From the NCBI GenBank assembly GCA_039654915.1, contig CM077595.1, forward strand, positions 91,863,501 to 91,927,500: a stretch of DNA of 64,000 bases, read 5' to 3'. The translations under genes and the position numbers were made by a program. The first letter of the stretch is position 1; each line of letters begins with the position of its first letter. Below the pieces are notes generated by a model. The model ran no database searches. It saw only the letters and a program-made list of their open reading frames with translations, and was not told where the DNA came from. Source of the stretch: Aquilaria yunnanensis. Lineage: Eukaryota > Streptophyta > Magnoliopsida > Malvales > Thymelaeaceae. Of this stretch, positions 748 to 28,974 are shown piece after piece.

Positions 748-794
748 AAAGCATTGAAGCCATTACTGGACTCAAAGCCAGTGGAAGACGAGGA

Positions 795-1295: not shown

Positions 1296-1325
1296 TCCTC
1301 TTTTCTCACAAAGGTAAGGATAGGA

Positions 1326-1955
1326 ATGGAGAAAACCCCAACTCGTAAATCCCGAAGTATTTGTGTATTTTCTGGGGCTTTTCCTGGAAAAGATGAAGAG
1401 TATTTAAAAGCAGCCAACCATTTGGGAAGAGTATTAGCTGAGCGAAAAATACATTTAGTTTATGGAGGAGGTAGTGTCGGATTAATGGGAGGTGTAGCAT
1501 CAGCAGCATCTCTAGGAGGAAGTCAAGTTCTGGGTATTATCCCTGGACCTCTGAAATTTATTTCTGGGGGCACGATTGGAGAAGAATTAGTGGTTAAAAA
1601 TTTGCAAGAGCGTGTGTTACAAATGCTTTTAAATGCTGATGCTTTTATCGCTCTACCAGGTGGTTTTGGCACATTGGGAGAAGTCTTTCAAATTGCTTCC
1701 ATGGCCCAACTTAATTTGCATAAGAAACCCATTGGGCTTTTGAATGTTAACAATTTCTTTACAGGTCTGATAGCTTTTATGGATTATGCTATGCAGAAGA
1801 ATTTCATATCAAGAGTGGCACGGCGAATCATAATATCCGCAACAACTGCTGAAGAATTGCTAGATAAAATACAAGCTTTTGTTCCTGAACCAGATCCAGC
1901 AATGATTCAGATAGACTGGACACGACAGTCTTTCCCGACCAGTTCACTCCCATAA
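1326..1955 (+). CDS. LOG-family cytokinin riboside 5'-monophosphate phosphoribohydrolase, copy A
   Basis: The 209-residue protein carries the LOG signatures: a Rossmann-type GGGSVGLMG (47-55), Arg96 in R-x3-M, and PGGFGTLGE (111-119), equivalent to the catalytic PGGxGTxxE. LOG enzymes release active cytokinin bases from cytokinin nucleotides in one step, usually in cytosol and nucleus. The length equals plant LOGs but the gene has no introns, whereas plant LOG genes usually have several. The ATG at 1326 matches copy B; an in-frame ATG at 1239 would lie upstream of the TATA box and has no open counterpart in copy B. It differs from copy B by two residues. Old annotations may call it lysine decarboxylase, which is a misnomer. 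Confidence 0.88.
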   Translation: MEKTPTRKSRSICVFSGAFPGKDEEYLKAANHLGRVLAERKIHLVYGGGSVGLMGGVASAASLGGSQVLGIIPGPLKFISGGTIGEELVVKNLQERVLQMLLNADAFIALPGGFGTLGEVFQIASMAQLNLHKKPIGLLNVNNFFTGLIAFMDYAMQKNFISRVARRIIISATTAEELLDKIQAFVPEPDPAMIQIDWTRQSFPTSSLP

Positions 1956-4345: not shown

Positions 4346-4354
4346 CCATCTTAC

Positions 4355-4580
4355 AACGATAGGAGCTTTCCTATCGTTAGAGGTTCTAAGGACATTTCCT
4401 TAACCTAAAACAAACAATCAATCCATCAGTCCATCTTACAACGATAGGAGCTTTCCTATCGTTAGAGGTTCTAAGGACCTTTCCTTAACCTCAAACAAAT
4501 AATCAATCAATCAGTCCATCTTACAACAATAGGAGCTTTCCTATCGTTAGAGGTTTCAAGGACCTTTCCTTAAACCTTAC
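4355..4580 (+). repeat. Three 85-bp hairpin repeats, copy A
   Basis: Three units of about 85 bp each hold the inverted repeat aacgatagga-gc-ttcctatcgtt followed by an AAGG...CCTT stem. They form a distinct second repeat family between the main array and the polypurine tract. They recur at 25896-26119. Confidence 0.85.
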
Positions 4581-4670
4581 TGTTTGGGCGGCGAGAACAT
4601 TCTCAATGCCTACCTAAGCCGGACGAAATTTGGTAACGACTTTGCATACATCATGTCCCATGAAGCATGC

Positions 4671-4679
4671 AAAGGGGGG
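4671..4679 (+). other. Polypurine tract of copy A
   Basis: AAAGGGGGG sits four bases (cagc) before the 3' LTR start and is the expected primer site for plus-strand synthesis. It is identical in position and sequence in copy B. Confidence 0.8.
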
Positions 4680-4683
4680 CAGC

Positions 4684-11222: not shown

Positions 11223-11227
11223 CAACT
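11223..11227. other. Left 5-bp target duplication of retrotransposon copy B
   Basis: CAACT directly before the 5' LTR is repeated at 28970-28974 directly after the 3' LTR. It defines the insertion precisely. Confidence 0.9.
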
Positions 11228-13972
11228 TGTTGACACCCAATTTCGTCCGGGTGTTTTAAAATTTTGAAAAAAATTTTATTAAAAAAAAATTAATTTAAAA
11301 AAATATATATATTACTATTATTATTAAAAAAAAATTTAATTAGTTTAAAATATATTTTTGTTTTGTGAAAATTTGATTTAAAATGATATATGTGTGAATA
11401 TGTGTATGTTTGAAATAAAATAAAATTTCATGAAAAAAATGACAAAAAATTAAAAGTTTGAGGTAAAAATGACAAAATTGAGAAGTTTCGGAAAAAATTG
11501 ACAAATTCTAAAAGTTCCAGGAGCATTTGGTAGTTTGTCACATAAAATTTTGAGCCTGCCGACGTTTTTGGCTCAAATTGACAGAAAACGACAAAATTGT
11601 CAAAATCAGAAGCTTCAGGAACTTATCCTGAGGCTGAGAGACGTAAAGGACTAAAATTGTCATTTTACCAATTTAAGAGATAAGTTTGAAATTTTTTATT
11701 AATTTATCCATCAACAGTTCAGCTAAACTTCCTCTATAAATAGCCCCCCAAATTTTGTGCTGAACACAGAAAAAAATACAGAGAAAGCTTAGAGCTCCGT
11801 TTTAAAAAATAGAAAAAATTACTTCCTTAGCCCCTGGCTCTCCTTCCTTTCTCCAGAAAATCCCAAAATTTTTTATTTTGACAGTTCGACCATCTTCTTC
11901 CTTCCATTTCCCGTGCGTTCTCTCTCTCTCTCCTCTCGTTTTCTCTCTCTTTCTCCTTCCTCTGCCGGCCGTCGCCTGCCGCCGCTCCGTCCGCGCCGCC
12001 GCCACGCCGCCGCTGCGTTCCTCCCTTGCGCCACCCTGCCCTTCCTCTTCCTCCCCTGCGCCGTGCCTGCTCCTCCCTCCTCCTCCCTCGCGTGTGCTCT
12101 GTCTCACGTTCCCAGCAAAATTCAAAATTAAAACTAAAGGGTACAACCCTTGTTTTGTCCTCTATTTTTTTTATTTCTTTCACTTTGGTCACTAACCTTT
12201 TATTTTGTTCTTGCAGAATTAATTCCTAACTATTTTAATTTTTACTTGTTTTACTTATTTGTTATTATTACTAACCCTTTTTTTTTTTGTTATTAACTTA
12301 CTAACAACTAACTTTTAATATTATTATTGTTACTAACCTTTTAATTTTTGCATTATTACTAACTTTTATAATTGTTGTTAACAATTAATTAACTTTTTAT
12401 TATTGTTGTTAATTAATTAATTTAATTAACTTGACTAACTTTTTATTATTGTTGTTAATCAATTAATTTAATTAACTTGACTAACTTTTTATTATTGTTG
12501 TTAATTAATTTAATTAACTTGTCTAACTTTTTATTATTTTTGTTAATTAATTAATTAACTTGGCTAACTTTTATTGTTGTTAATTAATTAATTTAATTAA
12601 CTTGGCTAACTTTTATTGTTGTTAATTAATTAATTTAATTAACTTGACTAACTTTTTATTATTGTTGTTAATTAATTAATTTAATTAACTTGACTAACTT
12701 TTTATTATTGTTGTTAATTAATTAATTTAATTAACTTGACTAACTTTTTATTATTGTTGTTAATCAATTAATTTAATTAACTTGACTAACTTTTTATTAT
12801 TGTTGTTAATCAATTAATTTAATTAAACTTGGCTAATTTTTATTATTGTTGTTAATTAATTTAATTAACTTTGCTAACCTTTATTATTATTTATTTTTAA
12901 AGTGGATGGCCAAAAAGCCCCACTTTATTATTATTAATTTTCCTTTATATAATTTTTTTTTAATTTAATTCACCTTTACCCTTACTTAAATAAATAAATG
13001 AAAATTAAAAGAAGATTATTTTTTTAAGCCTAATAAAAATAATTTTTTAAAAAGCCAATTATTTTTATTTTTCTTTTATAAATTGAATAATTATTTAAAT
13101 AATAAATAACTTTCACTAAAAAAAAAAAACTAAAAGAAAGATAAGAAAAAGATAAGAAAGATAAGAAAAAGATAAAAAAAAGAAAAGAAAGAAAGAAAAG
13201 AAAGAAAAGAAAAAGAAAAGATAAAAAAAGAAAAGAAAGAAAGAAAAGAAAGAAAAGAAAAAGAAAAGAAAAGAAAAGAAAGAAAAGAAAGGAAAAATAA
13301 AACTAAAAGAAAGATAAAATCAAAAAGAAAGAAAAGAAAGAAAGAAAAGAAAGAAAAGAAAAGAAAGTGTAAAGAATAAAAAATAAATTTTTTAGATTAT
13401 TAATAAATCTAAAAACAAAAGACTTACAAATTAGTAATAATAAATTCCATAAAAATAATAATTATATAACTAACAATTAATTAAAGTAATTTCCATATCC
13501 GGATGATCCAGCAGGATCTACGGTTTGGAAAATATCAAACTTTCAAAATAAATAAATTAAATAAAAAGATAAAAATCCATATTTTTACGATATGGATTAA
13601 AATTTTCACCAAATTCCGTGTCCAAATGACTCGGCAGAGTCCATGGTTCGGAATAAAAATCTTCCGTGTCCAAATGACTCGGCAGAGTCCATGGTTCGGA
13701 AGTATAAAATTCTATACAAATTAATTACCAAAAATCCACATCCGACTAATCCAGTTAAAATTTCTAATTTTGAAAATTAACTGAGAATTATTTAAAAGCA
13801 AAGCAAAACAAAATTAAAATCAACTAAGGTGCCAATTTTTGGGCGTTTTAACAAAGTTATTTTAACGTAACCGTACTCCCGATCCCCGAACTCTCGCAGA
13901 CCAATTTTAAGGTGACCAATCGACCTAAGAAAACTGATTGGTGGCGACTCCCGAAAACCCGACGTTGCCACA
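11228..13972 (+). repeat. 5' LTR of copy B
   Basis: 2745 bp, TG...CA ends. In order it contains a TATA box (11735-11743), a GC-rich segment (about 11905-12115), AT-rich 40-45-bp tandem repeats (about 12370-12870), a purine-rich tract (about 13110-13370) and direct repeats of the gactcggcagagtccatggt segment (about 13610-13700). Short ORFs on both strands in the GC-rich part are repeated identically in the other LTR and have no sign of being genes. Confidence 0.92.
11735..11743 (+). promoter_or_regulatory. LTR promoter TATA box, copy B 5' LTR
   Basis: TATAAATAG in a C-rich downstream context, conserved in all three LTRs of the window. Transcription of the element probably starts about 30 bases downstream, near 11770. 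Confidence 0.6.
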
Positions 13973-13975
13973 GCT

Positions 13976-13993
13976 TGGCGACTCCGCTGGGGA
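13976..13993 (+). other. Primer binding site, tRNA-Arg
   Basis: TGGCGACTCCGCTGGGGA starts three bases after the 5' LTR. It is complementary to the 3' end of a plant tRNA-Arg (ACG type) with one apparent mismatch, from my memory of that tRNA. A tRNA-Arg primer is typical of Ogre/Tat elements. Confidence 0.8.
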
Positions 13994-15076
13994 CTCCACG
14001 TTAGTGAGTCGAGCCTAAAATTGATTTGTTTTGATTTACTTTGCTTATTATGTGGATTTATATGTTATATTTACTTATTCTAAACATGCATAATGCATTC
14101 ACAATATGAAGCTCTATACCCGAGCTTTCTCAAATCGAACACAATTCTTTCTAAGCGGAATTGGTGTTGTTGTCCTTGTGAGGCCATGGTCTCCAAGCCT
14201 TCACCGGTTTCAAAGTAGCAAAGTAGTGTATTGCCTCCTGAGACGGTTAGTCTCTGCATGGGCCCACGAAAAGCTATGACTCGAATTAATCCATTCCTTA
14301 CATTAACCCTAGAGGGTAAGGAATCGGGCCATCACTATAATTTAGTGATGGGATTCGGGAACTATCCCTTGCCTTTTTGATAAGCCACCTTATGCATATA
14401 GAACTCCCCACTTAACCATAGAACTGACCATAGAATTTCTACCATTTTACCAACGCCATAAGCACGTCCTTGTTATGCTATGTTGTTGCTCTACACTTTT
14501 ATTTTCTTCGTGTCTTATATTTATGGTTTTAATTCATTTTTCCATAATACTTCATGAGTTGTTAATTGCTATTTAACTTATTAATAACCTTATCTTTCTT
14601 GTGCAATTATTCTTCATGCATTAAAACCACGCATCAAATTATACTAACTTTTTGGTCTTTATAATGACAACTAAAAGTTTTGAAGTTCCACGATAGTGGA
14701 TAATCAAATTCACTCATCGCATACATCCATTACATTAATCACGTGCATACAAAGTCTGATAAAAACATAATCTCATTGCATACATCCATTACATTAATCA
14801 CGTGCATATAAAGTCTGATAAAAACATAATCTCATTGCATACATCCATTACATTAATCACGTGCATATAAAGTCTGATAAAAACATAATCTCGTTGCATA
14901 CATCCATTACATCAATCATGTGCATACAAAGTCTGATAAAAACATAATCTCATTTTTCCTACATGCATCCATTGCATCAATCACATACACATAGGATCTA
15001 ATAAAATATATCTTACTTTTAAAAGGATAAAATTGGACCTCGACACTGATATTCAACTCGGCTCCAAATAAGATTA
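13994..15076 (+). other. Element leader between primer site and gag
   Basis: A non-coding leader about 1.1 kb long. Its right part holds the 59-bp tandem repeat listed separately. No ORF of note is present. Confidence 0.6.
14715..14950 (+). repeat. Four 59-bp tandem repeats in the leader
   Basis: The unit begins cattgcatacatccattaca and ends aaaacataatct. Four units are nearly identical and a fifth, degenerate one runs to about 15010. They lie where packaging or dimerisation signals of the genomic RNA would be expected, but that role is conjecture. Confidence 0.85.
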
Positions 15077-15901
15077 ATGGCAGAACAAATCGAAAGACGT
15101 CTCATAAAGATAGAGTCCAAGATAGAAAGTATGGCCGAACAAATGAGACAATTGATCGAGTTAATCAAGGCGAAAGCAATTCAAGAAGCACAAGTTCAGC
15201 CACCCATGACAGAAAGAGAAATGGTCACTTTGTTTGTCCAGACACTGAAGTACCTATATTATGACGAACACCTTGGCAATTCGGCAACTAATTTTTCTAA
15301 CATTGTCATGTCTGGAGAAAGAATCGAGCATGAGATTAGGACTGGGAATATTACTGAATCCTTTAATAATCCTATGAAAAGAGGAGGACCATCTAGAAGA
15401 AAAGATGACGAAGTACAACAAATAGGACGCAGAAGAAGGATTCCCCTCGTGGATACTGTGGCTATCGGACCTCGCCTATCCTATTTTGCCAATGGGCCCA
15501 ATGATTATCCTTCCAATAGGCCCAACAATTATCCTTTTAACAGACCTAATCAGTCATGGCCACCTGCTCCTACTCCTCCAGTACCTGCACCAAAACCAAG
15601 AGAAGTTTTCACACCAATTTCCATAACTTATACCGAGTTATACCCAAAACTCATCGAAAGACAATTTATCCGTCCAATTCCTACAAAGCCATTCAAACCC
15701 CCATATCCAAGGTGGTATGACCCTAACATTACCTGCCCATATCATGATGGCGTTCCAGGCCATGGCTTGGAAAACTGCATGGCATTGAAGCGTATAGTTC
15801 AACAATTAATCGAGTCAAAGTGGTTGGACTTTTCCGATGAGCCAAATGTCACCCACAATCCATTGCCGCCTCATCAAGCAAAACCAAGTCCAAGTTGCTA
15901 G
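15077..15901 (+). CDS. Internally deleted Tat-type Gag
   Basis: The 274-residue ORF starts with a charged coiled-coil-like stretch (1-40) and jumps to the end of a retrotransposon Gag domain (EREMVTLFVQTL, then ...GERIEHEIRTGNI, roughly 49-95). A basic and Pro-rich linker follows, then a C-x2-H-x5-H-x4-C knuckle (about 220-234) within the YDPN...C-x2-H...ENC context typical of Tat Gag. Full Tat Gags are usually over twice this length, so most of the capsid region is missing although the frame is open. It may still bind element RNA or co-assemble with intact Gag, or may simply be a remnant. Confidence 0.75.
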   Translation: MAEQIERRLIKIESKIESMAEQMRQLIELIKAKAIQEAQVQPPMTEREMVTLFVQTLKYLYYDEHLGNSATNFSNIVMSGERIEHEIRTGNITESFNNPMKRGGPSRRKDDEVQQIGRRRRIPLVDTVAIGPRLSYFANGPNDYPSNRPNNYPFNRPNQSWPPAPTPPVPAPKPREVFTPISITYTELYPKLIERQFIRPIPTKPFKPPYPRWYDPNITCPYHDGVPGHGLENCMALKRIVQQLIESKWLDFSDEPNVTHNPLPPHQAKPSPSC

Positions 15902-16529
15902 GCCCGATGTGATTGATAATTGAAAAGTGAAGATTTCGAGCTAGAATTACATTGACTTTGGAAGGCCTCCAAGTCAGATCTGACCTAACAGTTCGCACAC
16001 ATTTTTGAATGACAAGGAATCCTTTGAATAAACTTGTATCTTTGATAGCTTGCCAAAGTAATCTAATAGTAAAAATCTCCTAGATTTAGTCCAGAATCTA
16101 GGGTGTAGTCTTTGTTAAATGGGCACCTGGTATTCTTTTTCTTGGTACAACAAAAAGATGTAATGTGTGCATTCTACCACTTTTTACTAAAATTTCATTT
16201 TTACATCCACATATTCTACCACTTTCTACCAAAAATTTCATTTTTCTTACATCTATCTCTCACTCTTTGCCATTATACTATCCATTATTACCATCACACT
16301 TTACTTTGTAAACAATACTACTCGTGGGTGAAAATAAAAGTTAAGGGAGATTTGATAGTAATGATCTTCAAAGTGCTACCAAATCTAGTAAGAAGGATTC
16401 CAAATGTTGCACCTCAACCCTAAAAAAGAATTCACAGTGGTTATCAACATCCTTGCAAGGAGTCTGGGATTAACTTCCAAAGAAGTTAGCTCTCATATTA
16501 AATGACTTCAGTGGCCTCCCAATTCTCAC

Positions 16530-17040
16530 AAATGCTCAATACAAAAAAAAAATTCTCAGTTTTCCACAACACAAATTCCAACAAAGGAAAGAAGTTCCTC
16601 CCTTCCATCAAAAGCCATTAAAGAGAAAATCCAAACAAGAAAAAAAATCCAAAAAAAAAAAGAGACTGAGAAGCAAATAAAGCCACTTGAGTCATCTTAC
16701 TTCAAGAAGGCTATGATCTCGGTTCTCCATAACACAAACTCCAAAAAAAAAAAAGGGAAAAAGTTCATCCCTTCCATCAAAAAGCCAACAAGGGAAAATT
16801 CAAAACCAAAAAAAGCGAGACTGAGAGCAAACACAAGCAAGTAAGGCCACTTGAATCATCTCATTTCAAGAAGGCTATGATCTCGGTTCTCTGTAACAAA
16901 AACTCCGAAAAGGAAAAAGTTCATCCCTTCCACCAAAAAGCCAACAAGGGAAAATTCAAAACCAAAAAGAACTGAGAACAAGCACGAGCAAGCAAGGCCA
17001 CTTGAGTCATCTCACTTCAAGAGAGTTATCAAGCATGTTA
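16530..17040 (+). repeat. About 150-bp tandem repeats in the element interior
   Basis: Three to four degenerate units share aaggctatgatctcggttct, aagttcatcccttccatcaa and gccacttgaatcatctcatt. They are part of the non-coding region that replaces pol. Confidence 0.75.
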
Positions 17041-18531
17041 TCACCATAGCTCACACAAAAAAACAAAAAAACAAAAAAAAAAAAGAAGAAAAAGGGCTCA
17101 AACTAGAAAAAAAAAAAAAAAAAAAAAAGAAAAAAAGTGAGCTATGGATTCTAGACTGAAAACCTGCAAAGGCGGTTTAGAACACAAAAGCAACCCTCAA
17201 ACCAAGCATGCATAAAGATCACAATAGTTGGGGGGCAACAGATGAGGTCTAACTTTCTGGAAAGAGTGGCAAGTTTGAGGTCATCACTATTGAGTTTTTC
17301 ACCATAATCAAATTTGCTCACGAGTAGTATTAAAAGACCCTTCTTTCACACCACTCAAACTTAACTTTATTCAGACCTAATATTTACCTCTTAATATCAT
17401 TCTCATTCAGCTAAAAGACTGCCACAAAAAAAAAAACATTCAAACTTAACTTTCCTCACACCTAACATTTACCTCTCGATATCATCCTCATTCAGTTAAA
17501 AGGCTATTATTGTGAATCATGTTTCTACCTTATTGCCTTGCACAGTTTATGTCTTCAAGTTGGAAAGGGAAGAATGACAGGACATTTTAATTGAAAACAA
17601 AGACCGTAAATTACTTTGTCAAGCTTTGAAAATTGATGAAAGTTTTTCTTTAAGGCCAAACCATTATTCATTAATGTATGTAGACTTAAAAGTAAGGAGA
17701 TAGCTTGAGTCTTTCTTTAATAAGATGTGGTTCTTGTAAGAGAAATTTACGATCAAGTGCCATCACAAAGGTCTAGAAATCCTCAACCTTCTGTTAAATC
17801 AAAGGCGAGATGATATCTCTTTTCACATAAACACCATAATCAAGGGGGCAAAGTAGTCTCTACAAAGCGCAAGAAAAGTACTGCCAAGAAAGAAGCTCAA
17901 TAGACAAGGGGGCAAGTCTTATGGATCAGAACCTGAGTCTAAGGAAGAGCAATCATTCGGACTGTAACATGGGGGTAAACAAGTGTCCGCACGGCCAGAA
18001 GAAAATGGGCAAAGCAGACATTGAAAGTAAAGCCTTTGATGGTATCAAATCCATGACAATGGATGAGTACCCGAAAGAGATATAAATTATGAGGCGGGCC
18101 AACTTTAAAGAAATTGAGGCCAAAATTCAAGAACAAGTCAAAGAAAGGGGATTTTGAAAAGAGTTGGGCTTTTGAGGCAGTGAACAAAAGCTGGAAAGCA
18201 TAAAGAGATTCAATGATAGTCCAAGAAGGCAATTATAAAGAGGATCCAGTAAAGCAAAGATATGAAGAACTAGATCAATCCAAAAAAAATAAAAAATAAA
18301 AAAATAAATATAAATAAAAAAAAAAAAAAAAAAAAACCATCAATTACACATGCTTTGCATTCATGCATTTCACATCATGCATGCATGATTTTTACACGAT
18401 AGGAATCAAATGGGAAACACATCCACCGCACCGTTACAGCAGTATAAGCTGAGATCTCAATAATATCAGCTCTTACCAATCTATCACTGGATACACAGCT
18501 AATATGCAGGACCAACCCACATCAGGAATTC

Positions 18532-18870
18532 AAGGATAAGGTAGACAATATGTCAAAAGCCTGGCAATTGATTCAATAATCGAGACTACACCTGGAAGGA
18601 TAGGATTGACATCAGCTAGTAGTATCCAAAATAAGAGATAGCTATAGCCAAGGATAAGGCAGATATCAAAAAGGATAAAGTAGACAATATTGTCAAAAGC
18701 TTGGCAATTGATTCAATAATCGAGGCTACACCTGAAAGGACAGGATTGATGCCAGCTTAGCAGCATCCAAGATAAGAGATAGCTGTGGTCAAAGATAAGG
18801 CAGACATCAAGAAATATTGTCGTTGAAACTTTGTCAAAAGCGGACAATGGATTCAATAATCGAGGACTGG
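18532..18870 (+). repeat. About 130-bp tandem repeats upstream of CRP1
   Basis: Two full units and one partial unit share ggcaattgattcaataatcg, cacctggaaggataggattga and aagataagagatagctgtgg. They end roughly 160 bases before the CRP1 start and could contribute to its regulation. Confidence 0.75.
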
Positions 18871-19028
18871 ATCAACGGATAAAAAAAAAATATCTATCAA
18901 AATGAAGTAGGATCTACTTTTCCGGTTAAACGGCGGATACGGTACTCCGTGACTCTCAAGTCGGTTCTCTCAGTTGCCCATAATAACTGATTCCTTCACC
19001 CCTTCTTTCTTTTACTTCCTCCTAGAAA

Positions 19029-19577
19029 ATGGATCCTACTTTTTCCGCCTTGCGAAAGTATTTCCCTTCTCTCCCAATGAACATCCTCAAAAAGATCTAC
19101 CAAGTTCGCTGTGAACGATTAAGAGTTCTGATGCACAAAGGAATCCCTGAAGATGTGCGGTGGTTAATCGAAGCCAAGGTTCGTCTAGCAGGTGAAATCC
19201 CAGAGGCATTTGTGTCTCACATGCCTGGTATAGGCAAAAGCTCTTATGCCAAAAAGCGAAGAGCGAAAAGGTTACAAGTCTGCCATAAATGTGGACGGTG
19301 GACTTGTAATACTAAATGTCATTCTTTAGGGATGATCTCTGATAATCGAGAAGATAAAATACGATTCATTAAGAATGGCTTGAGTAAAGACTCGTTGGAT
19401 GATATCCAATTGACTCTTGAGACGCATTCTTGTGGATCTGTGCAACGTGAACTACTTGGTTTGTGGAGCATTTTTCATGAAGAACGAGAACGATACAGTC
19501 CCGGGAATCTGACGTTAAACGACCCTATTTGTCAGCTTGTAAGAAAACTGGATGGGAAGCAAATCCTCGACTCATAG
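19029..19577 (+). CDS. CRP1: carlavirus-type cysteine-rich nucleic-acid-binding-like protein
   Basis: A 182-residue intact ORF, first of four tandem paralogs. Cys85, Cys88, Cys93 and Cys97 form C-x2-C-x4-C-x3-C, preceded by KKRRAKR (75-81), a probable nuclear localisation and nucleic-acid-binding patch. It is followed by a conserved IRFIKNGL block (about 111-118) and an acidic, Cys-containing C-terminal half not present in most short viral relatives. The ~75-residue N-terminal extension is Leu/Lys-rich and helical in character. Viral counterparts bind RNA/DNA, enter the nucleus and affect host proliferation and silencing. That this copy does so is inference. Its upstream sequence differs from the other copies. 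Confidence 0.75.
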   Translation: MDPTFSALRKYFPSLPMNILKKIYQVRCERLRVLMHKGIPEDVRWLIEAKVRLAGEIPEAFVSHMPGIGKSSYAKKRRAKRLQVCHKCGRWTCNTKCHSLGMISDNREDKIRFIKNGLSKDSLDDIQLTLETHSCGSVQRELLGLWSIFHEERERYSPGNLTLNDPICQLVRKLDGKQILDS

Positions 19578-19589
19578 AAGCCGTTAATC

Positions 19590-19742
19590 CCGTTACTGGA
19601 CGTAAAACCAGTGGAAGATGTGAGCCACAGTCACAATCACTGTACATACAATTTATCATATTTAAAATTTTCCATTTTTCTTTTAATAATGTATTTGCTC
19701 CCGTAAGTGTAATCGACACGTTATCCATTTCATTGCTATAAA
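19590..19742 (+). promoter_or_regulatory. CRP spacer/promoter module upstream of CRP2
   Basis: The spacer carries the shared core gtcacaatcactgtacatac, an AT-rich stretch, gctcccgtaagtgtaatcga and a TATA-like gctataaatg ending at about 19743. It is nearly identical to the spacer before CRP3, but here the TATA-like box abuts the CRP2 start. Confidence 0.5.
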
Positions 19743-19749
19743 TGGAAAA

Positions 19750-20295
19750 ATGGAAAATTTTTCTGTCTTACGAAAATATTTTCCTTCTCTCCCAATGAAC
19801 ATTCTCAAAAAGATCTACCAAGTTCCCTGTGAACGATTAAGAGTTCTGATGCACAAAGGAATCCCTGAAGATGTGCGGTGGTTAATCGAAGCCAAGGTTC
19901 GTCTGGCAGGTGAAATCCCAGAGGCATTTGTGTCTCACATGCCTGGTATAGGCAAAAGCTCTTATGCCAAAAAGCGAAGAGCGAAAAGGTTACAAGTCTG
20001 CCATAAATGTGGACGGTGGACTTGTAATACTAAATGTCGTTCTTTAGGGATGATCTCTGATAATCGAGAAGATAAAATACGATTCATTAAGAATGGCCTG
20101 AGTAAGGACTCGTTGGATGATATCCAATTGACTCTTGAGACGCATTCTTGTGGATCCGTGCAAAGTGAACTTCTTGGTTTATGGAGCATTTTTCATGAAG
20201 AACGAAACCGTTACAGTCCCGGGAATCTGACTGTAAATGACCCTGTTTGCCAGCTTGTAAGAAAACTGGATGGGAAGCAAATCCTCGACTCATAG
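19750..20295 (+). CDS. CRP2: carlavirus-type cysteine-rich protein paralog
   Basis: A 181-residue ORF nearly identical to CRP1 over residues 6-181, with the same basic patch and Cys4 cluster. Differences from CRP1 include Arg27 to Pro in the N-terminal helix-like region and Glu-to-Asn, Arg-to-Ser changes near the C-terminus. The usual 5' leader is missing: the TATA-like box at about 19736-19743 lies only a few bases before the ATG, and an out-of-frame ATG occurs at 19742. The unit 19029-19749 / 19750-20460 is a recent tandem duplication. Expression from its own promoter is therefore doubtful. Confidence 0.7.
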   Translation: MENFSVLRKYFPSLPMNILKKIYQVPCERLRVLMHKGIPEDVRWLIEAKVRLAGEIPEAFVSHMPGIGKSSYAKKRRAKRLQVCHKCGRWTCNTKCRSLGMISDNREDKIRFIKNGLSKDSLDDIQLTLETHSCGSVQSELLGLWSIFHEERNRYSPGNLTVNDPVCQLVRKLDGKQILDS

Positions 20296-20299
20296 AAGC

Positions 20300-20462
20300 C
20301 GTTAATCCCGTTACTGGACGTAAAACCAGTGGAAGATGTGAGCCACAGTCACAATCACTGTACATACAATTTATCATATTTAAAATTTTCCATTTTTCTT
20401 TTAATAATGTATTTGCTCCCGTAAGTGTAATCGACACGTTATCCATTTCATCGCTATAAATG
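20300..20462 (+). promoter_or_regulatory. CRP spacer/promoter module upstream of CRP3
   Basis: Near-identical to the spacer after CRP1, with TATAAATG at 20455-20462. The ATG of CRP3 lies 80 bases beyond, so a leader of about 50 bases is possible. This is the most conventional promoter arrangement of the tandem copies. Confidence 0.55.
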
Positions 20463-20541
20463 CATGTTCTTCCAGTCGGTTTTCTAAGTTTCCTTCAATA
20501 ACTAATTCCTTTCCATCATCTCTCAAATTCTTCTCTCATCA

Positions 20542-21090
20542 ATGGATTCTACTCTTTCTACCCTGCGAAAATACTTTCCTTCTCTTCCAATAAAAGTCCT
20601 TAAAAAGATCTACCTTGCTAGATGTGAAAGAATCAGAGTTTTTATGCACAAAGGCATTCCTGATAATGTGCGGTGGCTAATTGAAGCTAAGGTTCGTTCA
20701 GCTGGTGAAGTTCCAGAAGCGTTCTTTCCCCGTATGCCCGGCTTTGGTAAAAGCGCTTATGCTAAAAAGCGAAGAGCAAAGAGGCTAGGTGTCTGTCATA
20801 AATGTGGACGATGGAATTGTAATACTAAATGTCGCTTTTTAGGATACATCTCCAGAAATCATGAAGATAAAAGAAAATTCATCAAGAATGGCTTGCGTAA
20901 GGAATCTTTGGATGATATCCTATTAACTTTTGAAACACATTCTTGTGAAATAGTGCAATGGGAAATTATGGATTTATGGTGGACTTTCCAAAAAGAACAA
21001 GATCGTTACAGTCTTGGGAATGTGACTTTAAACGACCCTGTTTGTCAGTTTGTAAGAAAACTGGATGGGAAGCAAATCCCCGACTTATAG
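20542..21090 (+). CDS. CRP3: carlavirus-type cysteine-rich protein paralog
   Basis: A 182-residue intact ORF, intermediate between the CRP1/2 and CRP4 types: the first 75 residues resemble CRP4 (RSAGEVPEAFFPRMPG), while the finger (CHKCGRW-N-CNTKC) resembles CRP1/2. This mosaic suggests conversion or unequal recombination between tandem copies. All four Cys and the basic patch are kept. A Leu-Trp-Trp replaces Leu-Trp-Ser/Ile near residue 147. Confidence 0.75.
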   Translation: MDSTLSTLRKYFPSLPIKVLKKIYLARCERIRVFMHKGIPDNVRWLIEAKVRSAGEVPEAFFPRMPGFGKSAYAKKRRAKRLGVCHKCGRWNCNTKCRFLGYISRNHEDKRKFIKNGLRKESLDDILLTFETHSCEIVQWEIMDLWWTFQKEQDRYSLGNVTLNDPVCQFVRKLDGKQIPDL

Positions 21091-21099
21091 AAGGCATTG

Positions 21100-21248
21100 A
21101 AGCCATTACTGGACATAAATCAGTGGAAGATGAGAGCCACGGTCATGATTCCTGTACATATAAGCTGTCATTTGTCTTTTCTTTTGACAATAATGTACTT
21201 GCTTCTGTAAGTGTAATTAACGCATTATCCCTTTCATCACTATAAATA
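21100..21248 (+). promoter_or_regulatory. CRP spacer/promoter module upstream of CRP4
   Basis: TATAAATA at 21241-21248 is preceded by gcttctgtaagtgtaattaa and a ggtcatgattcctgtacata core. It matches positions 1-140 of copy A closely. ATG of CRP4 lies at 21307, 59 bases after the box. Confidence 0.55.
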
Positions 21249-21306
21249 TGTGTTAGTTATTTTCGTTTCCTACAATCACTAATTTCTTTCTTTGCCTCCT
21301 TCATCA

Positions 21307-21855
21307 ATGGAGTCTTCTCTTTCCGCCTTACGAAAGTATTTTCCTTCCTTCCCAATAAATGTTCTTAAAAAGATTTATCAAGCTAGATGTGAACGATTCA
21401 GAGTATTTATGCACAAAGGCATCCCTGATAATGTGCGGTGGCTAATTGAAGCTAAGGTTCGTTCAGCTGGTGAAGTTCCCGAAGCGTTCTTTCCCCGTAT
21501 GCCCGGCTTTGGTAAAAGCGCTTATGCCAAAAAAAGAAGAGCAAAGAGGCTAGGCGTTTGTCATAATTGTGGATGTTGGATTTGCGGCAATAAATGTCGT
21601 TCTCCAGGAGTGATCACCAGAAATCGTAATGATAGAATAAAATTCATCAAGAATGGCTTGCGTAAGGAATCTCTGGAAGATATTCGAGAGGTTCTTGAAG
21701 CGCATTCTTGCGGAATAGTGCAATTTGAGGTTGTTGGATTATGGATAATTTTCCAAAAAGAACGAGATCGTTATAGTCTTGGGAATCTGACTTTAAACGA
21801 CCCAGTTTGCCAGTTTGTGAGAAAACTGGATGGGATGCAAATCACCGATTCATAG
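21307..21855 (+). CDS. CRP4: carlavirus-type cysteine-rich protein paralog
   Basis: A 182-residue intact ORF, the last CRP before LOG and the counterpart of the CRP gene in copy A (four residue differences). The finger reads CHNCG-C-W-I-C-GNK-C, so this copy has one extra Cys inside the loop where copy A has Trp. The FIKNGLRKESLEDI segment after the finger and the C-terminal DPVCQFVRKLDG block are shared by all paralogs. Translation from ATG 21307 is preferred because it aligns with the other starts; the five upstream in-frame codons begin with TTG. Confidence 0.75.
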   Translation: MESSLSALRKYFPSFPINVLKKIYQARCERFRVFMHKGIPDNVRWLIEAKVRSAGEVPEAFFPRMPGFGKSAYAKKRRAKRLGVCHNCGCWICGNKCRSPGVITRNRNDRIKFIKNGLRKESLEDIREVLEAHSCGIVQFEVVGLWIIFQKERDRYSLGNLTLNDPVCQFVRKLDGMQITDS

Positions 21856-21899
21856 AAAGCATTGAAGCCATTACTGGACGCAAAGCCAGTGAAAGACGA

Positions 21900-22320
21900 G
21901 GATCAAAGTCACGATTACTGTACGTGCTAGCTGTCGCTTTTGGAAAATTTCCTCCCCTTTTGGTAATAATGTATCCACTCCTGACGTGAACCAAAGTCAC
22001 GATTACTGTACGTGCTAGCTGTCGCTTTTGAAATCTTCCTCCCCTTTCGGCGATAATGTATCCACTCCTGACATGAGCCATAGTCACGATACTGTACATG
22101 CTAGCTGCCACTTTTTAAAATTTTCCTTCTCTTCCAACAATCACGTACCTACTCCTGACGTAAGCTACAGTAGTGACTACTGTACATGCTAGCAGCTATT
22201 TTGAAAATTTTCCTCCTCTTTTAACGATAGTGTACCCATACCTGACCAGAGTCATACTCGTGACTACTGTGAATAGCTGGCAATAATGTATCCATTCTTG
22301 AAAATAAAATTATTGCCTTA
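21900..22320 (+). repeat. Direct repeats of promoter-like module upstream of LOG, copy B
   Basis: About five 70-89-bp units with the gtcacgattactgtacgtgc core and the aataatgtatccactcctgac tail. Copy A has about six, so the number varies between insertions. The pattern looks like upstream activating repeats derived from the CRP promoter module. Confidence 0.7.
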
Positions 22321-22324
22321 TCTC

Positions 22325-22334
22325 TATAAATATA
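22325..22334 (+). promoter_or_regulatory. TATA box of LOG gene, copy B
   Basis: TATAAATATA lies 40 bases before the ATG at 22365, as in copy A. Confidence 0.5.
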
Positions 22335-22364
22335 TCCTCTTTTCTCACAAGGGTAAGGATAGGA

Positions 22365-22994
22365 ATGGAGAAAAGCCCAACTCGTAAATCCCGAAGTATT
22401 TGTGTATTTTCTGGGGCTTTTCCTGGAAAAGATGAAGAGTATTTAAAAGCAGCCAACCATTTGGGTAGAGTATTAGCTGAGCGAAAAATACATTTAGTTT
22501 ATGGAGGAGGTAGTGTCGGATTAATGGGAGGTGTAGCATCAGCAGCATCTCTAGGAGGAAGTCAAGTTTTGGGCATTATCCCTGGACCTCTGAAATTTAT
22601 TTCTGGGGGCACGATTGGAGAAGAATTAGTGGTTAAAAATTTGCAAGAGCGTGTGTTACAAATGCTTTTAAATGCTGATGCTTTTATCGCTCTACCAGGT
22701 GGTTTTGGCACATTGGGAGAAGTCTTTCAAATTGCTTCCATGGCCCAACTTAATTTGCATAAGAAACCCATTGGGCTTTTAAATGTTAACAATTTCTTTA
22801 CAGGTCTGATAGCTTTTATGGATTATGCTATGCAGAAGAATTTCATATCAAGAGTGGCACGGCGAATTATAATATCCGCAACAACTGTTGAAGAATTGTT
22901 AGATAAAATACAAGCTTTTGTTCCTGAACCAGATCCAGCAATGATTCAGATAGACTGGACACGACAGTCTTTCCCGACCAGTTCACTCCCATAA
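22365..22994 (+). CDS. LOG-family cytokinin riboside 5'-monophosphate phosphoribohydrolase, copy B
   Basis: A 209-residue intact, intronless ORF. It keeps GGGSVGLMG (47-55), Arg96, Met100 and PGGFGTLGE (111-119), the residues that form the nucleotide site of LOG enzymes, so activity is plausible. It departs from typical plant LOGs at CVFSGAFPGKDEEY (13-26), the loop 76-95 and the C-terminus, so it is a divergent branch. The two differences from copy A are Thr4 to Ser and one Ala to Val near residue 170. Sense orientation, own TATA box and position after the CRP genes suggest separate expression from the LTR transcript. Origin from a plant mRNA by retro-capture, or from a non-plant source, are both possible. 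Confidence 0.88.
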   Translation: MEKSPTRKSRSICVFSGAFPGKDEEYLKAANHLGRVLAERKIHLVYGGGSVGLMGGVASAASLGGSQVLGIIPGPLKFISGGTIGEELVVKNLQERVLQMLLNADAFIALPGGFGTLGEVFQIASMAQLNLHKKPIGLLNVNNFFTGLIAFMDYAMQKNFISRVARRIIISATTVEELLDKIQAFVPEPDPAMIQIDWTRQSFPTSSLP

Positions 22995-23510
22995 TGGTCC
23001 TCTACTCACCTTGTTGAAGTATTGTGGAAGAAAGAAGCGATCTGATCCGTTTTTCTTGTCCTTTAGTTTTATTATCAGCATTTTCTTTCGCGTTTCAGTT
23101 TTTCTTTTCAGGGAATTTCTTTTTTTATAATATAGTTTCGTCCATGCTGATATTAAAACCATAGGACAATGCCTTTAGGTTGGAATGACTGAGTAAAGAG
23201 TAATTTTTGTTACTCTTGAGACGCATCCTATTAGGTCTACTAGGCATAACAATTTGGGGTAGTTAAGCTTTAACCTTATTCGGATGACATATCTCACAAG
23301 GGAATCTATATTTACTGAAGAAAATATTAGATGAACCTTGAATATTGATTCCAAACATCCGTTCCATTTACATAATTTGTCAGTGTTATTGTCATCATCA
23401 AGATTCACTCGTTTTATCGAAGCCTAATTCTTTGCGCTCGCCAATTATGAAAATTCACACTTTCGAAGAAAATTATTCCAATTTCAATTGCTTTCATATA
23501 AATTTCGCTC
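22995..23510 (+). other. LOG 3' flank, copy B
   Basis: Conserved with copy A and probably holding the LOG 3'UTR. No coding signal is seen. Confidence 0.5.
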
Positions 23511-25870
23511 GAGGTCCTAAGGAAAGCTCCTTAGCCTCAAAATCAATTTTCATCATCGGGGTTTTAAGGATGGAACCTTTGCCTCGAAAATAATCAATTT
23601 TCATCATCGAGGTTTTAAGGATGGAACCTTTACCTCGACATCAATCAATCAATCCGAGGTTTTAAGGATGGAACCTTTGCCTCGAAAAGAATCAATTTTC
23701 ATCATCGGGGTTTTTAGGATGGAACCTTTGCCTCGAAAATAATCAATTTTCATCATCGGGGTTTTAAGGATGGAACCTTTGCCTCGAAAAGAATCAATTT
23801 TCATCATCAGGGTTTTAAGGATGGAACCTTTGCCTCGAAAAGAATCAATTTTCATCATCGGGGTTTTAAGGATGGAACCTTTGCCTCGAAAAGAATCAAT
23901 TTTCATCATCGGGGTTTTAAGGATGGAACCTTTGCCTCGAAAATAATCAATTTTCATCATCGGGGTTTTAAGGATGGAACCTTTGCCTCGAAAACAATCA
24001 ATTTTCATCATCGGGGTTTTAAGGATGGAACCTTTGCCTCGAAAACAATCAATTTTCATCATCGGGGTTTTAAGGATGGAACCTTTGCCTCGAAAAGAAT
24101 CAATTTTCATCATCAGGGTTTTAAGGATGGAACCTTTGCCTCGAAAATAATCAATTTTCATCATCGGGGTTTTAAGGATGGAACCTTTGCCTCGAAAACA
24201 ATCAATTTTCATCAATTCGAAGTTTTAAGGATAGAACCTTTGCCTCGAAAACAATCACTTTTCATCATCGGGGTTGTAAGGATGGAACCTTTGCCTCGAA
24301 AATAATCAATTTTCATCATCAGGGTTTTAAGGATGGAACCTTTGCCTTGAAAAGAATCAATTTTCATCATCGGGGTTTTAAGGATGGAACTTTTGCCTCG
24401 AAAATAATCAATTTTCATCATCGGGGTTTTAAGGATGGAACCTTTGCCTCGAAAACAATCAATTTTCATCGGGGTTGTAAGGATGGAACCTTTGCCTCGA
24501 AAATAATCAATTTTCATCATCAGGGTTTTAAGGATGGAACCTTTGCCTTGAAAAGAATCAATTTTCATCATCGGGGTTTTAAGGATGGAACCTTTGCCTC
24601 GAAAATAATCAATTTTCATCATCGGGGTTTTAAGGATGGAACCTTTGCCTCGAAAATAATCAATTTTCATCATCGGGGTTTTAAGGATGGAACCTTTGCC
24701 TCGAAAACAATCAATTTTCATCGGGGTTTTAAGGATGAAACCTTTGCCTCGAAAACAATCAATTTTCATCATCGGGGTTTTAAGGATGGAACCTTTGCCT
24801 CGAAAATAATCAATTTTCATCATCGGGGTTTTAAGGATGGAACCTTTGCCTCGAAAATAATCAATTTTCATCATCGGGGTTTTAAGGATGGAACCTTTGC
24901 CTCGAAAATAATCAATTTTCATCATCGGGGTTTTAAGGATGAAACCTTTGCCTCGAAAACAATCAATTTTCAACATCGGGGTTTTAAGGATGGAACTTTT
25001 GCCTCAAAAATAATCAATTTTCATCATCGGGGTTTTAAGGATGGAACCTTTGCCTCGAAAACAATCAATTTTCATCATCGGGGTTTTAAGGATGGAACCT
25101 TTGCCTCGAAAATAATCAATTTTCATCATCAAGGTTTTAAGGATGGAACCTTTGCCTCGAAAACAATCAATCAATTCGAGGCTTTAAGGATGGAACCTTT
25201 ACCTCGACATCAATCAATCAATTCGAGGTTTTAAGGATGGAACCTTTGCCTCGACATCAATCAATCAATCCGGGGTTTTAAGGATGGAACCTTTGCCTCG
25301 AGATCAATCAATCAATCCGAGGTTTTAAGGATAGAACCTTTGCCTCGAGATCAATCAATCAATCCGGGGTTTTAAGGATGGAACCTTTGCCTCGAGATCA
25401 ATTATCAATCCGAGGTTTTAAGGATGGAACCTTTGCCTCGACATCAATCAATCAATTCGAGGTTTTAAGGATGGAACCTTTGCCTCGAGATCAATCAATC
25501 AATCCGAGGTTTTAAGGATAGAACCTTTGCCTCGAGATCAATCAATCAATCCGGGGTTTTAAGGATGGAACCTTTGCCTCGAGATCAATCAATCAATCCG
25601 AGGTTTTAAGGATAGAACCTTTGCCTCGAGATCAATCAATCAATCCGGGGTTTTAAGGATGGAACCTTTGCCTCGAGATCAATTATCAATCCGAGGTTTT
25701 AAGGATGGAACCTTTGCCTCGACATCAATCAATCAATTCAAGGTTTTAAGGATGGAACCTTTGCCTCGACATCAATCAATCAATCCGGGGTTTTAAGGAT
25801 GGAACCTTTGCCTCGAGATCAATCAATCAATCCGAGGTTTTAAGGATGGAACCTTTGCCTCGAAAACAAA
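23511..25870 (+). repeat. 47-51-bp hairpin-forming tandem array, copy B
   Basis: About 47 units by length, longer than in copy A. The 51-bp type runs to about 25160 and the 47-48-bp type after that. Some units lack exactly 3 bp. Every unit keeps the GAGG/CCTC and AAGG/CCTT pairing potential. Both strands read open for hundreds of codons because the period is 17 codons. Confidence 0.9.
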
Positions 25871-25895
25871 TAATCAATCAATCAGTCCATCTTAC

Positions 25896-26119
25896 AACGA
25901 TAGGAGCTTTCCTATCGTTAGAGGTTCTAAGGACATTTCCTTAACCTAAAACAAACAATCAATCCATCAGTCCATCTTACAACGATAGGAGCTTTCCTAT
26001 CGTTAGAGGTTCTAAGGACCTTTCCTTAGCCTCAAACAAATAATCAATCAATCAGTCCATCTTACAACAATAGGAGCTTTCCTATCGTTAGACGTTTTAA
26101 GGACCTTTCCTTAAACCTT
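25896..26119 (+). repeat. Three 85-bp hairpin repeats, copy B
   Basis: Same family as 4355-4580, each with aacgatagga-gc-ttcctatcgtt (the third unit carries one change in the left arm). Confidence 0.85.
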
Positions 26120-26211
26120 ACTGTTTGGGCGGCGAGAACATTCTCAATGCCTACCTAAGCCGGACGAAATTTGGTAACGACTTTGCATACATCATGTCCC
26201 ATGAAGCATGC

Positions 26212-26220
26212 AAAGGGGGG
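26212..26220 (+). other. Polypurine tract of copy B
   Basis: AAAGGGGGG, followed by cagc and then the 3' LTR start. Together with the primer binding site it shows the element was competent for reverse transcription. Confidence 0.8.
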
Positions 26221-26224
26221 CAGC

Positions 26225-28969
26225 TGTTGACACCCAATTTCGTCCGGGTGTTTTAAAATTTTGAAAAAAATTTTATTAAAAAAAAATTAATTTAAAAAAA
26301 TATATATATTACTATTATTATTAAAAAAAAATTTAATTAGTTTAAAATATATTTTTGTTTTGTGAAAATTTGATTTAAAATGATATATGTGTGAATATGT
26401 GTATGTTTGAAATAAAATAAAATTTCATGAAAAAAATGACAAAAAATTAAAAGTTTGAGGTAAAAATGACAAAATTGAGAAGTTTCGGAAAAAATTGACA
26501 AATTCTAAAAGTTCCAGGAGCATTTGGTAGTTTGTCACATAAAATTTTGAGCCTGCCGACGTTTTTGGCTCAAATTGACAGAAAACGACAAAATTGTCAA
26601 AATCAGAAGCTTCAGGAACTTATCCTGAGGCTGAGAGACGTAAAGGACTAAAATTGTCATTTTACCAATTTAAGAGATAAGTTTGAAATTTTTTATTAAT
26701 TTATCCATCAACAGTTCAGCTAAACTTCCTCTATAAATAGCCCCCCAAATTTTGTGCTGAACACAGAAAAAAATACAGAGAAAGCTTAGAGCTCCGTTTT
26801 AAAAAATAGAAAAAATTACTTCCTTAGCCCCTGGCTCTCCTTCCTTTCTCCAGAAAATCCCAAAATTTTTTATTTTGACAGTTCGACCATCTTCTTCCTT
26901 CCATTTCCCGTGCGTTCTCTCTCTCTCTCCTCTCGTTTTCTCTCTCTTTCTCCTTCCTCTGCCGGCCGTCGCCTGCCGCCGCTCCGTCCGCGCCGCCGCC
27001 ACGCCGCCGCTGCGTTCCTCCCTTGCGCCACCCTGCCCTTCCTCTTCCTCCCCTGCGCCGTGCCTGCTCCTCCCTCCTCCTCCCTCGCGTGTGCTCTGTC
27101 TCACGTTCCCAGCAAAATTCAAAATTAAAACTAAAGGGTACAACCCTTGTTTTGTCCTCTATTTTTTTTATTTCTTTCACTTTGGTCACTAACCTTTTAT
27201 TTTGTTCTTGCAGAATTAATTCCTAACTATTTTAATTTTTACTTGTTTTACTTATTTGTTATTATTACTAACCCTTTTTTTTTTTGTTATTAACTTACTA
27301 ACAACTAACTTTTAATATTATTATTGTTACTAACCTTTTAATTTTTGCATTATTACTAACTTTTATAATTGTTGTTAACAATTAATTAACTTTTTATTAT
27401 TGTTGTTAATTAATTAATTTAATTAACTTGACTAACTTTTTATTATTGTTGTTAATCAATTAATTTAATTAACTTGACTAACTTTTTATTATTGTTGTTA
27501 ATTAATTTAATTAACTTGTCTAACTTTTTATTATTTTTGTTAATTAATTAATTAACTTGGCTAACTTTTATTGTTGTTAATTAATTAATTTAATTAACTT
27601 GGCTAACTTTTATTGTTGTTAATTAATTAATTTAATTAACTTGACTAACTTTTTATTATTGTTGTTAATTAATTAATTTAATTAACTTGACTAACTTTTT
27701 ATTATTGTTGTTAATTAATTAATTTAATTAACTTGACTAACTTTTTATTATTGTTGTTAATCAATTAATTTAATTAACTTGACTAACTTTTTATTATTGT
27801 TGTTAATCAATTAATTTAATTAAACTTGGCTAATTTTTATTATTGTTGTTAATTAATTTAATTAACTTTGCTAACCTTTATTATTATTTATTTTTAAAGT
27901 GGATGGCCAAAAAGCCCCACTTTATTATTATTAATTTTCCTTTATATAATTTTTTTTTAATTTAATTCACCTTTACCCTTACTTAAATAAATAAATGAAA
28001 ATTAAAAGAAGATTATTTTTTTAAGCCTAATAAAAATAATTTTTTAAAAAGCCAATTATTTTTATTTTTCTTTTATAAATTGAATAATTATTTAAATAAT
28101 AAATAACTTTCACTAAAAAAAAAAAACTAAAAGAAAGATAAGAAAAAGATAAGAAAGATAAGAAAAAGATAAAAAAAAGAAAAGAAAGAAAGAAAAGAAA
28201 GAAAAGAAAAAGAAAAGATAAAAAAAGAAAAGAAAGAAAGAAAAGAAAGAAAAGAAAAAGAAAAGAAAAGAAAAGAAAGAAAAGAAAGGAAAAATAAAAC
28301 TAAAAGAAAGATAAAATCAAAAAGAAAGAAAAGAAAGAAAGAAAAGAAAGAAAAGAAAAGAAAGTGTAAAGAATAAAAAATAAATTTTTTAGATTATTAA
28401 TAAATCTAAAAACAAAAGACTTACAAATTAGTAATAATAAATTCCATAAAAATAATAATTATATAACTAACAATTAATTAAAGTAATTTCCATATCCGGA
28501 TGATCCAGCAGGATCTACGGTTTGGAAAATATCAAACTTTCAAAATAAATAAATTAAATAAAAAGATAAAAATCCATATTTTTACGATATGGATTAAAAT
28601 TTTCACCAAATTCCGTGTCCAAATGACTCGGCAGAGTCCATGGTTCGGAATAAAAATCTTCCGTGTCCAAATGACTCGGCAGAGTCCATGGTTCGGAAGT
28701 ATAAAATTCTATACAAATTAATTACCAAAAATCCACATCCGACTAATCCAGTTAAAATTTCTAATTTTGAAAATTAACTGAGAATTATTTAAAAGCAAAG
28801 CAAAACAAAATTAAAATCAACTAAGGTGCCAATTTTTGGGCGTTTTAACAAAGTTATTTTAACGTAACCGTACTCCCGATCCCCGAACTCTCGCAGACCA
28901 ATTTTAAGGTGACCAATCGACCTAAGAAAACTGATTGGTGGCGACTCCCGAAAACCCGACGTTGCCACA
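26225..28969 (+). repeat. 3' LTR of copy B
   Basis: Same length as the 5' LTR, with all landmarks at a constant offset of 14,997; its TATA box is at 26732-26740. I found no base difference in the stretches I compared, which include all short ORFs in the GC-rich region. Confidence 0.92.
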
Positions 28970-28974
28970 CAACT
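28970..28974. other. Right 5-bp target duplication of copy B
   Basis: CAACT, identical to 11223-11227. Confidence 0.9.

Follow-up and report, generated by a model that had tools for sequence, protein, structure and literature searches.

A 64,000-nucleotide stretch of the Aquilaria yunnanensis genome (assembly GCA_039654915.1, contig CM077595.1, positions 91,863,501 to 91,927,500 of the forward strand; hereafter the window) contains a 17,742-bp long terminal repeat (LTR) retrotransposon at 11228-28969, which we call element B. Judged by its sequence, element B is a copy of a large non-autonomous Tat/Ogre-like family of Ty3/Gypsy retrotransposons. We consider it probable that this is a pol-less family in which two to four genes for cysteine-rich proteins (CRPs) and one LOG gene have taken the place of pol and the gag capsid part, that the family is moved in trans, and that this cargo favors the spread of the element.

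The two LTRs of element B show 0 mismatches over 2,745 bp and end in TG...CA. Together with the target-site duplication (TSD), the primer binding site (PBS, reading TGGCGACTCC...) and the polypurine tract (PPT), they give the element the structure of an LTR retrotransposon (Table 1). The internal open reading frames (ORFs) are all in the sense orientation and comprise a 274-aa gag, four CRPs of 181-182 aa and a 209-aa LOG. No pol ORF was found in element B in the ORF survey, and its gag is without the capsid part, which places it outside the autonomous Ty3/Gypsy elements (gag plus protease, reverse transcriptase, RNase H and integrase). An earlier note on this DNA had described a structurally complete LTR element with four intact CRP ORFs and an intact LOG ORF. 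The LTRs, TSD, PBS and Pfam matches agree with that description, and the PPT adds to it; the completeness is structural and does not extend to autonomy, as pol is absent and the 274-aa gag is internally deleted.

Copies of the element in the host genome

We searched the host genome (842 Mb, 345 contigs) for further copies. The junction of the 5′ LTR and the primer site occurs genome-wide at 491 forward and 491 reverse places with at most two mismatches (control: 0); the equal counts may reflect chance or a counting limit and are taken as an order of magnitude only. By this measure, the family likely has about a thousand copies. In the protein searches, the best 150 of 3,663 first-look LOG candidates were scored, all of them 99-100% identical and without inner stops, and the best 150 of 8,875 first-look CRP4 candidates were 98-100% identical.

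Ten copies picked by their LOG match all have CRPs followed by LOG in the same element layout, with three CRP starts in nine copies and two in one. Their LTR pairs are 97.3-100% identical; L013, L023 and L025 were compared from the margin of the retrieved sequence onward, and L025 contains undetermined bases on the 3′ side. Perfect 5-bp TSDs, all of them different, flank 8/8 checkable copies (seven LOG-picked copies with both ends and the window copy). Among the ten, L023 has a 724-aa gag-protease ORF (L023:3287-5461, the protease match being sub-threshold only) and six have a 298-aa gag ORF; no gag match was found in the remaining three (L013, L021 and L025), all of which keep the cargo.

A second sample consists of slices of 14 copies picked by the junction. 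It was drawn from 100 listed exact-match places on contigs C1 to C6, so that copies with one or two mismatches lie outside it. The first six are every fifth place without an entry in the LOG match list, a selection that works against finding LOG; of the remaining eight, two belong to that every-fifth series and six are hand-picked places on C5. Cargo, that is, CRPs and LOG, is present in 13 of the 14 copies (95% interval 0.69-0.99), with the slices of L032 and L039 ending inside LOG.

It is also evident that a second copy lies in the window itself. Copy A (1-7199), a separate insertion that extends beyond the left window edge, shares 178/182 identical residues with element B in CRP4 and 207/209 in LOG, and a primer-site junction compatible with it is found at C3:91856156, left of the window. 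The earlier note had taken copy A for a separate insertion with its cargo in the same order, and CRP4 followed by LOG is indeed what the stretch read contains. Both samples and the different TSDs bear out its further claim of a cargo that belongs to a propagating element; the check that it proposed, whether CRP and LOG lie inside LTR pairs with target duplications elsewhere, gave a positive answer in 7/7 fully readable LOG-picked copies.

A relative with pol in place of the cargo

The sole cargo-free copy among the 14, L044 (C5:96565997-96569496; read together with L045-L047), has pol in place of CRP and LOG, in agreement with the earlier description of the cargo as sitting where pol should be. 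L044 has a 770-aa ORF with RVT_1, RT_RNaseH and RVT_3, separated by one in-frame stop from a second ORF of 337 aa that contains Integrase_H2C2 and rve; the 3′ LTR comes immediately after. The RVT_3 match (582-692) lies after RT_RNaseH and before the integrase, and we read it as a second RNase H (aRH), the feature that defines the Tat clade; it is found in this relative and not in the window copy. An aRH between RNase H and integrase marks angiosperm Tat elements, either Ogre or Retand, as described in part of PMC6317226. Upstream, the relative has a 5′ ORF that matches DUF7745 (4.1e-42) and a gag that matches PF03732 (5.4e-12). What was read of the relative is a set of pieces, which leave a gap of about 2.4 kb from the gag piece to the pol slice; neither CRP nor LOG matches any of these pieces. 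A 5′ ORF before gag is a mark of Ogre, and the relative has both this ORF and the aRH, the order of the latter being common with Retand. By its long LTRs and 5′ ORF, we tentatively favor Ogre over Retand for the relative.

Element B and the relative share several parts. Their LTR ends are 81-84% identical and inner LTR stretches 69-79%; the first 467 bp of the leader are 95% identical and the last 121 bp 86%, with the DUF7745 ORF of the relative in between. The gag of element B aligns with that of the relative on either side of a gap of about 612 bp, which corresponds to the capsid-domain stretch. A possible pol-side remnant is a stretch of 120 bp after the gag of element B, which matches the first part of the relative's pol slice at 72.5% identity. 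Because the leader, primer site and LTR ends are common to both, the relative likely mobilizes the cargo copies in trans.

The CRP and LOG proteins

PF05515 matches all four window CRPs above the curated cut-off and PF01623 three of the four, with CRP4 just below (19.9 versus 20.9 bits); both families match 12/12 members of alignment A1 at E ≤ 0.001. C85, C88, C93 and C97 are invariant in 12/12 CRPs, and C88 and C93 in 53/53. In the tree, the four window CRPs and two near relatives form one group (SH-aLRT 98), so that the CRP array arose by duplication within this lineage. There are 126 CRP homologs at E ≤ 0.001, of which 120 are listed, and the organism-named matches listed are all plants (Xanthoceras, Populus, Acer, Orobanche, Citrus and Parasponia). 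A scan of viral contigs with the CRP alignment, over a set that may hold few plant RNA viruses, gave no encoded relative, and no solved structure matches CRP at E ≤ 1. The AlphaFold model (53 aligned sequences; pLDDT 62.5, pTM 0.32) is too poor for a fold comparison.

Carlavirus CRPs have a nuclear localization signal adjoining a zinc finger and are silencing suppressors, according to the part of PMC8742542 available to us. The CRPs of the element resemble carlavirus CRP/Viral_NABP in the Pfam matches and in a basic stretch adjoining the cysteine motif, the order being AKKRRAKR and then C85/C88/C93/C97. They differ in being about 180 aa long and plant-chromosomal. The likeness to carlavirus CRPs asserted in the earlier note holds at the level of Pfam matches; a carlavirus origin is conjectural, and all organism-named matches listed are from plants.

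The LOG ORF of element B matches PF03641 at 1.9e-30, and its best sequence match in PDB is AtLOG3 (3e-51). The structure model (pLDDT 85.2) has AtLOG3, AtLOG8 and Pseudomonas LOG as its best structural matches and superimposes on AtLOG3 and AtLOG8 with TM 0.92-0.93 by target, within the LOG fold. The PGGxGTxxE motif is present in 41/43 LOG tree rows. R96 and E119, which we take to be the catalytic Arg and Glu of LOG, are invariant in the 33 rows of alignment A3 (window included), chosen without the two motif-less rows. The residue after R96 in A3 is Ile in 15, Met in 10, Leu in 7 and Val in 1 of the 33 rows and never Lys; Lys follows the presumed catalytic Arg in AtLOG3, AtLOG8 and bacterial LOG. 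A quick tree of the 43 rows puts the retro-type LOGs from several eudicots into a single group separate from AtLOG3/8 (SH-aLRT 97), with rows picked from the best matches, few canonical LOGs and some long branches. A scan of viral contigs with LOG gave no encoded relative. The LOG of element B is predicted to activate cytokinin. The window copy has the start codon that gives 209 aa; copy A and the ten LOG-picked copies have a further ATG upstream in the same open frame, for a protein of 238 aa.

Related CRP and LOG proteins are found in several other eudicot groups. In the Citrus gene models P0085 and P0104, CRP and LOG-family sequences are joined in one protein. Judging by gene names, LOG relatives in Reevesia pubescens lie on many chromosomes, a spread that would be expected of mobile copies.

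Selective constraint on the cargo

The ratio of nonsynonymous to synonymous substitution rates (dN/dS) was computed among junction-picked copies after those of other length had been dropped. For CRP4 it is 0.31 (n = 7, including one diverged CRP3-like gene that contains a stop), and for LOG it is 0.28 (n = 9, of which three contain stops). In the shifted frames, the corresponding proportions (pN/pS) are 0.83 and 1.15 for CRP4, and 0.43 and 2.31 for LOG. Third codon positions, with an expectation of one third, account for 55 of the 109 variable sites in CRP4 (P = 0.00016) and for 35 of the 77 in LOG (P = 0.018). Among CRP4 variants common to at least two copies, the proportion is 33/63 (P = 0.0014). 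Given the dN/dS values and the third-position excess, LOG and CRP4 therefore look constrained. Among the LOG-picked copies and the window copy, CRP1 is often cut short, and pN/pS is 0.18 for CRP1 and 0.42 for CRP3.

Promoter motifs ahead of the cargo genes

In the internal region, the motif CTATAAAT is found at four places on the + strand, each just ahead of CRP2, CRP3, CRP4 or LOG, and at none on the − strand. Its distance to the ATG is 20-120 nt for CRP3, CRP4 and LOG. Three ORFs with such spacing were seen in 0/1,000 shuffled sequences and in 15/1,744 slid placements. Since the CRP repeats are related by duplication, the four boxes are not four independent events. In other copies, TATAAAT is found within 130 nt before LOG in 24/24 cases, before CRP4-type genes in 23/23 and before CRP3-type genes in 19/19, genes too close to a slice edge being excluded from these counts. 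These motifs are predicted to be promoters of CRP3, CRP4 and LOG.

Splice acceptors were also considered. Four strong acceptors precede cargo ORFs versus 2.65 expected by shuffling, and this candidate was discarded as unsupported. The acceptor before CRP1 is well placed.

Features of the window

The coordinates of element B and copy A are listed in Table 1. Long tandem arrays of 51-bp, 47/48-bp and 85-bp units lie between LOG and the 3′ LTR at 23541-26114 and 2359-4490, and the 87-bp repeats at 21904-22246 seem to differ among family copies. Outside the two copies, the window has an ORF for a host leucine-rich repeat receptor kinase (40602-44144), presumably BRI1-like (BRL2/VH1), a host GAGA-binding/BASIC PENTACYSTEINE gene (51626-52477), and direct repeats (47848-49199) that measure 175-184 bp, are spaced about 860 bp and agree at 87-90%. 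The best-scoring matches of the GAGA-binding gene are Malvales proteins (75-77% for Pterospermum, Hibiscus and Rubroshorea), with equal identity reached by Sapindales, Rosales and Fagales rows; taken alone, it places the host among the rosids, perhaps in Malvales.

Table 1. Features of element B and copy A in the window
Feature	Coordinates	Strand	Remarks
TSD CAACT, left copy	11223..11227	.	
5′ LTR, element B	11228..13972	+	0 mismatches to 26225-28969
Leader	13973..15076	+	compared with pol-bearing relative
Primer binding site TGGCGACTCCGCTGGGGAC	13976..13994	+	from sequence; starts TGG
gag ORF	15077..15901	+	about 612 bp missing, including Retrotrans_gag capsid domain of relative
CRP1	19029..19577	+	Viral_NABP 6.4e-7, Carla_C4 4e-6
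CTATAAAT TATA-like box ahead of CRP2	19736..19743	+	14 nt from CRP2 ATG
CRP2	19750..20295	+	identical to CRP1 at 172/182 aligned positions
CTATAAAT box ahead of CRP3	20454..20461	+	
CRP3	20542..21090	+	
CTATAAAT box ahead of CRP4	21240..21247	+	
CRP4	21307..21855	+	
87-bp tandem repeat between CRP4 and LOG	21904..22246	+	3.9 copies
CTATAAAT box ahead of LOG	22324..22331	+	
LOG-family ORF	22365..22994	+	209 aa; R96 and E119 retained
Tandem-repeat arrays, LOG to 3′ LTR	23541..26114	+	51-bp x47, then 85-bp x3
Polypurine tract AAAGGGGGGCAGC	26212..26224	+	from sequence; G-rich, before 3′ LTR
3′ LTR, element B	26225..28969	+	
TSD CAACT, right copy	28970..28974	.	
CRP4 of copy A	199..747	+	copy A cut by left window edge
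LOG of copy A	1326..1955	+	
3′ LTR of copy A	4684..7199	+	

How the cargo may serve the element

In the explanation that we prefer, particles, reverse transcriptase and integrase would come from a pol-bearing relative, and the cargo element would contribute an RNA with the common leader and primer site. CRP3, CRP4 and LOG would be transcribed from promoters of their own and could thus be expressed apart from the LTR transcript. By analogy with the carlavirus proteins (PMC8742542, seen in part), the CRPs may bind nucleic acids in the nucleus and weaken silencing. LOG would release active cytokinin and keep cells dividing, and the element would gain if the pool of meristem cells that feeds the germline grew or kept dividing for longer. 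A more far-reaching version is one that we put forward only tentatively. In it, an old plant retrotransposon lineage has a host-steering module of CRP genes directed against silencing and a LOG gene for cytokinin, each able to work from a promoter of its own. The parasite would thereby tune growth in the cells through which it is inherited, and the form without pol would have become more numerous than its partner with pol.

Several observations weigh against the explanation we prefer. Decay is frequent: LOG is intact in 7/11 complete or nearly complete junction slices (of the other four, three contain stops and one an altered C-terminus), CRP4 is intact in 6/13 junction copies under a strict rule, with open 180- and 182-aa ORFs also present at CRP4 in L031 and L032, and CRP1 has a premature stop in 6/10 aligned copies (LOG-picked plus window, one more having been dropped for an indel). 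For LOG variants common to at least two copies, the third-position share is 6/10 and not significant (P = 0.077), and the LOG-picked copies are skewed to a conserved LOG. Two of the 43 LOG tree rows (P0167 and P0218) do not have the PGGxGTxxE motif, and the non-Lys residue 97 of the retro-type LOGs could alter activity. TATAAAT is absent within 130 nt before CRP1-type genes in 14/14 other copies. As for the partner, the reading covers a single pol-bearing relative, whose aRH and integrase are separated by an in-frame stop and whose own activity is unproven.

Some of these observations would also suit a cargo that was captured and is merely carried along, persisting through recent amplification from few source copies. 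LTR pairs are at least 99.9% identical in 6/10 LOG-picked copies (L023 and L025 partial) and in the window copy, young age alone could make the ORFs look intact, and CRP1 is often truncated. However, dN/dS of about 0.3 among junction-picked copies and the third-position excess speak for constraint, related CRP and LOG occur in several eudicot groups with the two presumed catalytic residues invariant throughout A3, and the cargo is retained in the three copies where a gag match is absent. We regard a mere passenger as unlikely, with a chance that is nonetheless worth keeping in mind. The loss of the gag capsid part alongside the retention of several basic zinc-finger CRPs could instead mean that the CRPs are nucleocapsid or RNA-packaging helpers that replace the lost part of gag and direct the RNA of the element into particles of the partner, with LOG in a side role. 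This leaves the linked LOG and the separate TATA boxes unexplained, the CRP model (pLDDT 62) is too poor for a fold comparison, and we think it rather improbable.

The intact ORFs with their own TATA motifs would also be expected if copies of retro-LOG and CRP had been domesticated and served the host in regulation or in defense against viruses, but the copies are dispersed, young, near-identical and decaying, like those of a selfish family, which leaves host service very improbable. When the window alone was considered, as at first reading, CRP and LOG could have been host loci flanked by LTRs by chance or misassembly, the circumstance that the earlier note named as counting against its own view. 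The recurrence of the same layout in all ten LOG-picked and 13/14 junction-picked copies on several chromosomes, with different TSDs in 8/8, contradicts and refutes this, and we give it next to no weight.

Retrotransposons are commonly viewed as competing by copying and hiding. If our preferred explanation is true, a selected hormone enzyme and virus-like proteins in a pol-less family would represent a transposon that gains by changing host physiology, and a genomic parasite could influence host cell division via the predicted cytokinin activation. The presence of at least 150 near-identical LOG-family copies in one genome also matters for the annotation of cytokinin genes, and the cargo element and its pol donor form a testable two-component system.

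Comparison with known systems

Non-autonomous elements of the LARD and TR-GAG types have LTRs, a primer site and a remnant gag, are without pol and need a partner. Element B shares this makeup; LARD and TR-GAG elements are not known to carry a conserved set of foreign enzymes. The pol-bearing relative resembles Ogre/Tat elements in its aRH between RNase H and integrase, its kilobase-long LTRs and its 5′ ORF before gag, whereas the window element is without pol, gag capsid and 5′ ORF and has CRP and LOG. Extra ORFs in LTR elements are treated by PMC7264820 and PMC11963269, both consulted in part. Retand/Grande elements, as portrayed in the section seen of PMC11963269, are alike in a long region with tandem repeats and accessory genes, and the references of that paper include work on a Grande accessory gene with transcription from a promoter of its own. 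Their accessory ORFs are mostly antisense (TRP28), whereas the cargo here is all sense and pol is absent.

A LOG-family domain inside Gypsy elements has already been published. The YgdH domain, found in LOG proteins, was reported in Gypsy consensuses of two Citrus species, and a laxer filter added a YgdH-Gypsy of Populus trichocarpa (PMC9289625); the same paper cites Steinbauerova et al. (2011) for Gypsy elements with YgdH/LOG domains. These elements are like ours in having a LOG-family domain inside eudicot Gypsy. Since that screen used reverse transcriptase as its marker, its consensuses carry reverse transcriptase, and the section concerned names no CRP; the family described here is without pol and has two to four CRPs and LOG. 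In titles and the first parts of abstracts we found no report of a paired CRP-LOG module, in a search that covered few subscription papers and did not extend to Steinbauerova et al. (2011). Another parallel comes from Phalaenopsis, in which Ogre-related elements carry an AlkB RNA demethylase, an enzyme also known from Betaflexiviridae (both from the part seen of PMC9289625). As far as that account goes, these too are Tat-clade elements with a fixed extra host-type enzyme; they combine reverse transcriptase with one such enzyme, whereas the family of element B combines a CRP array with LOG and has no pol.

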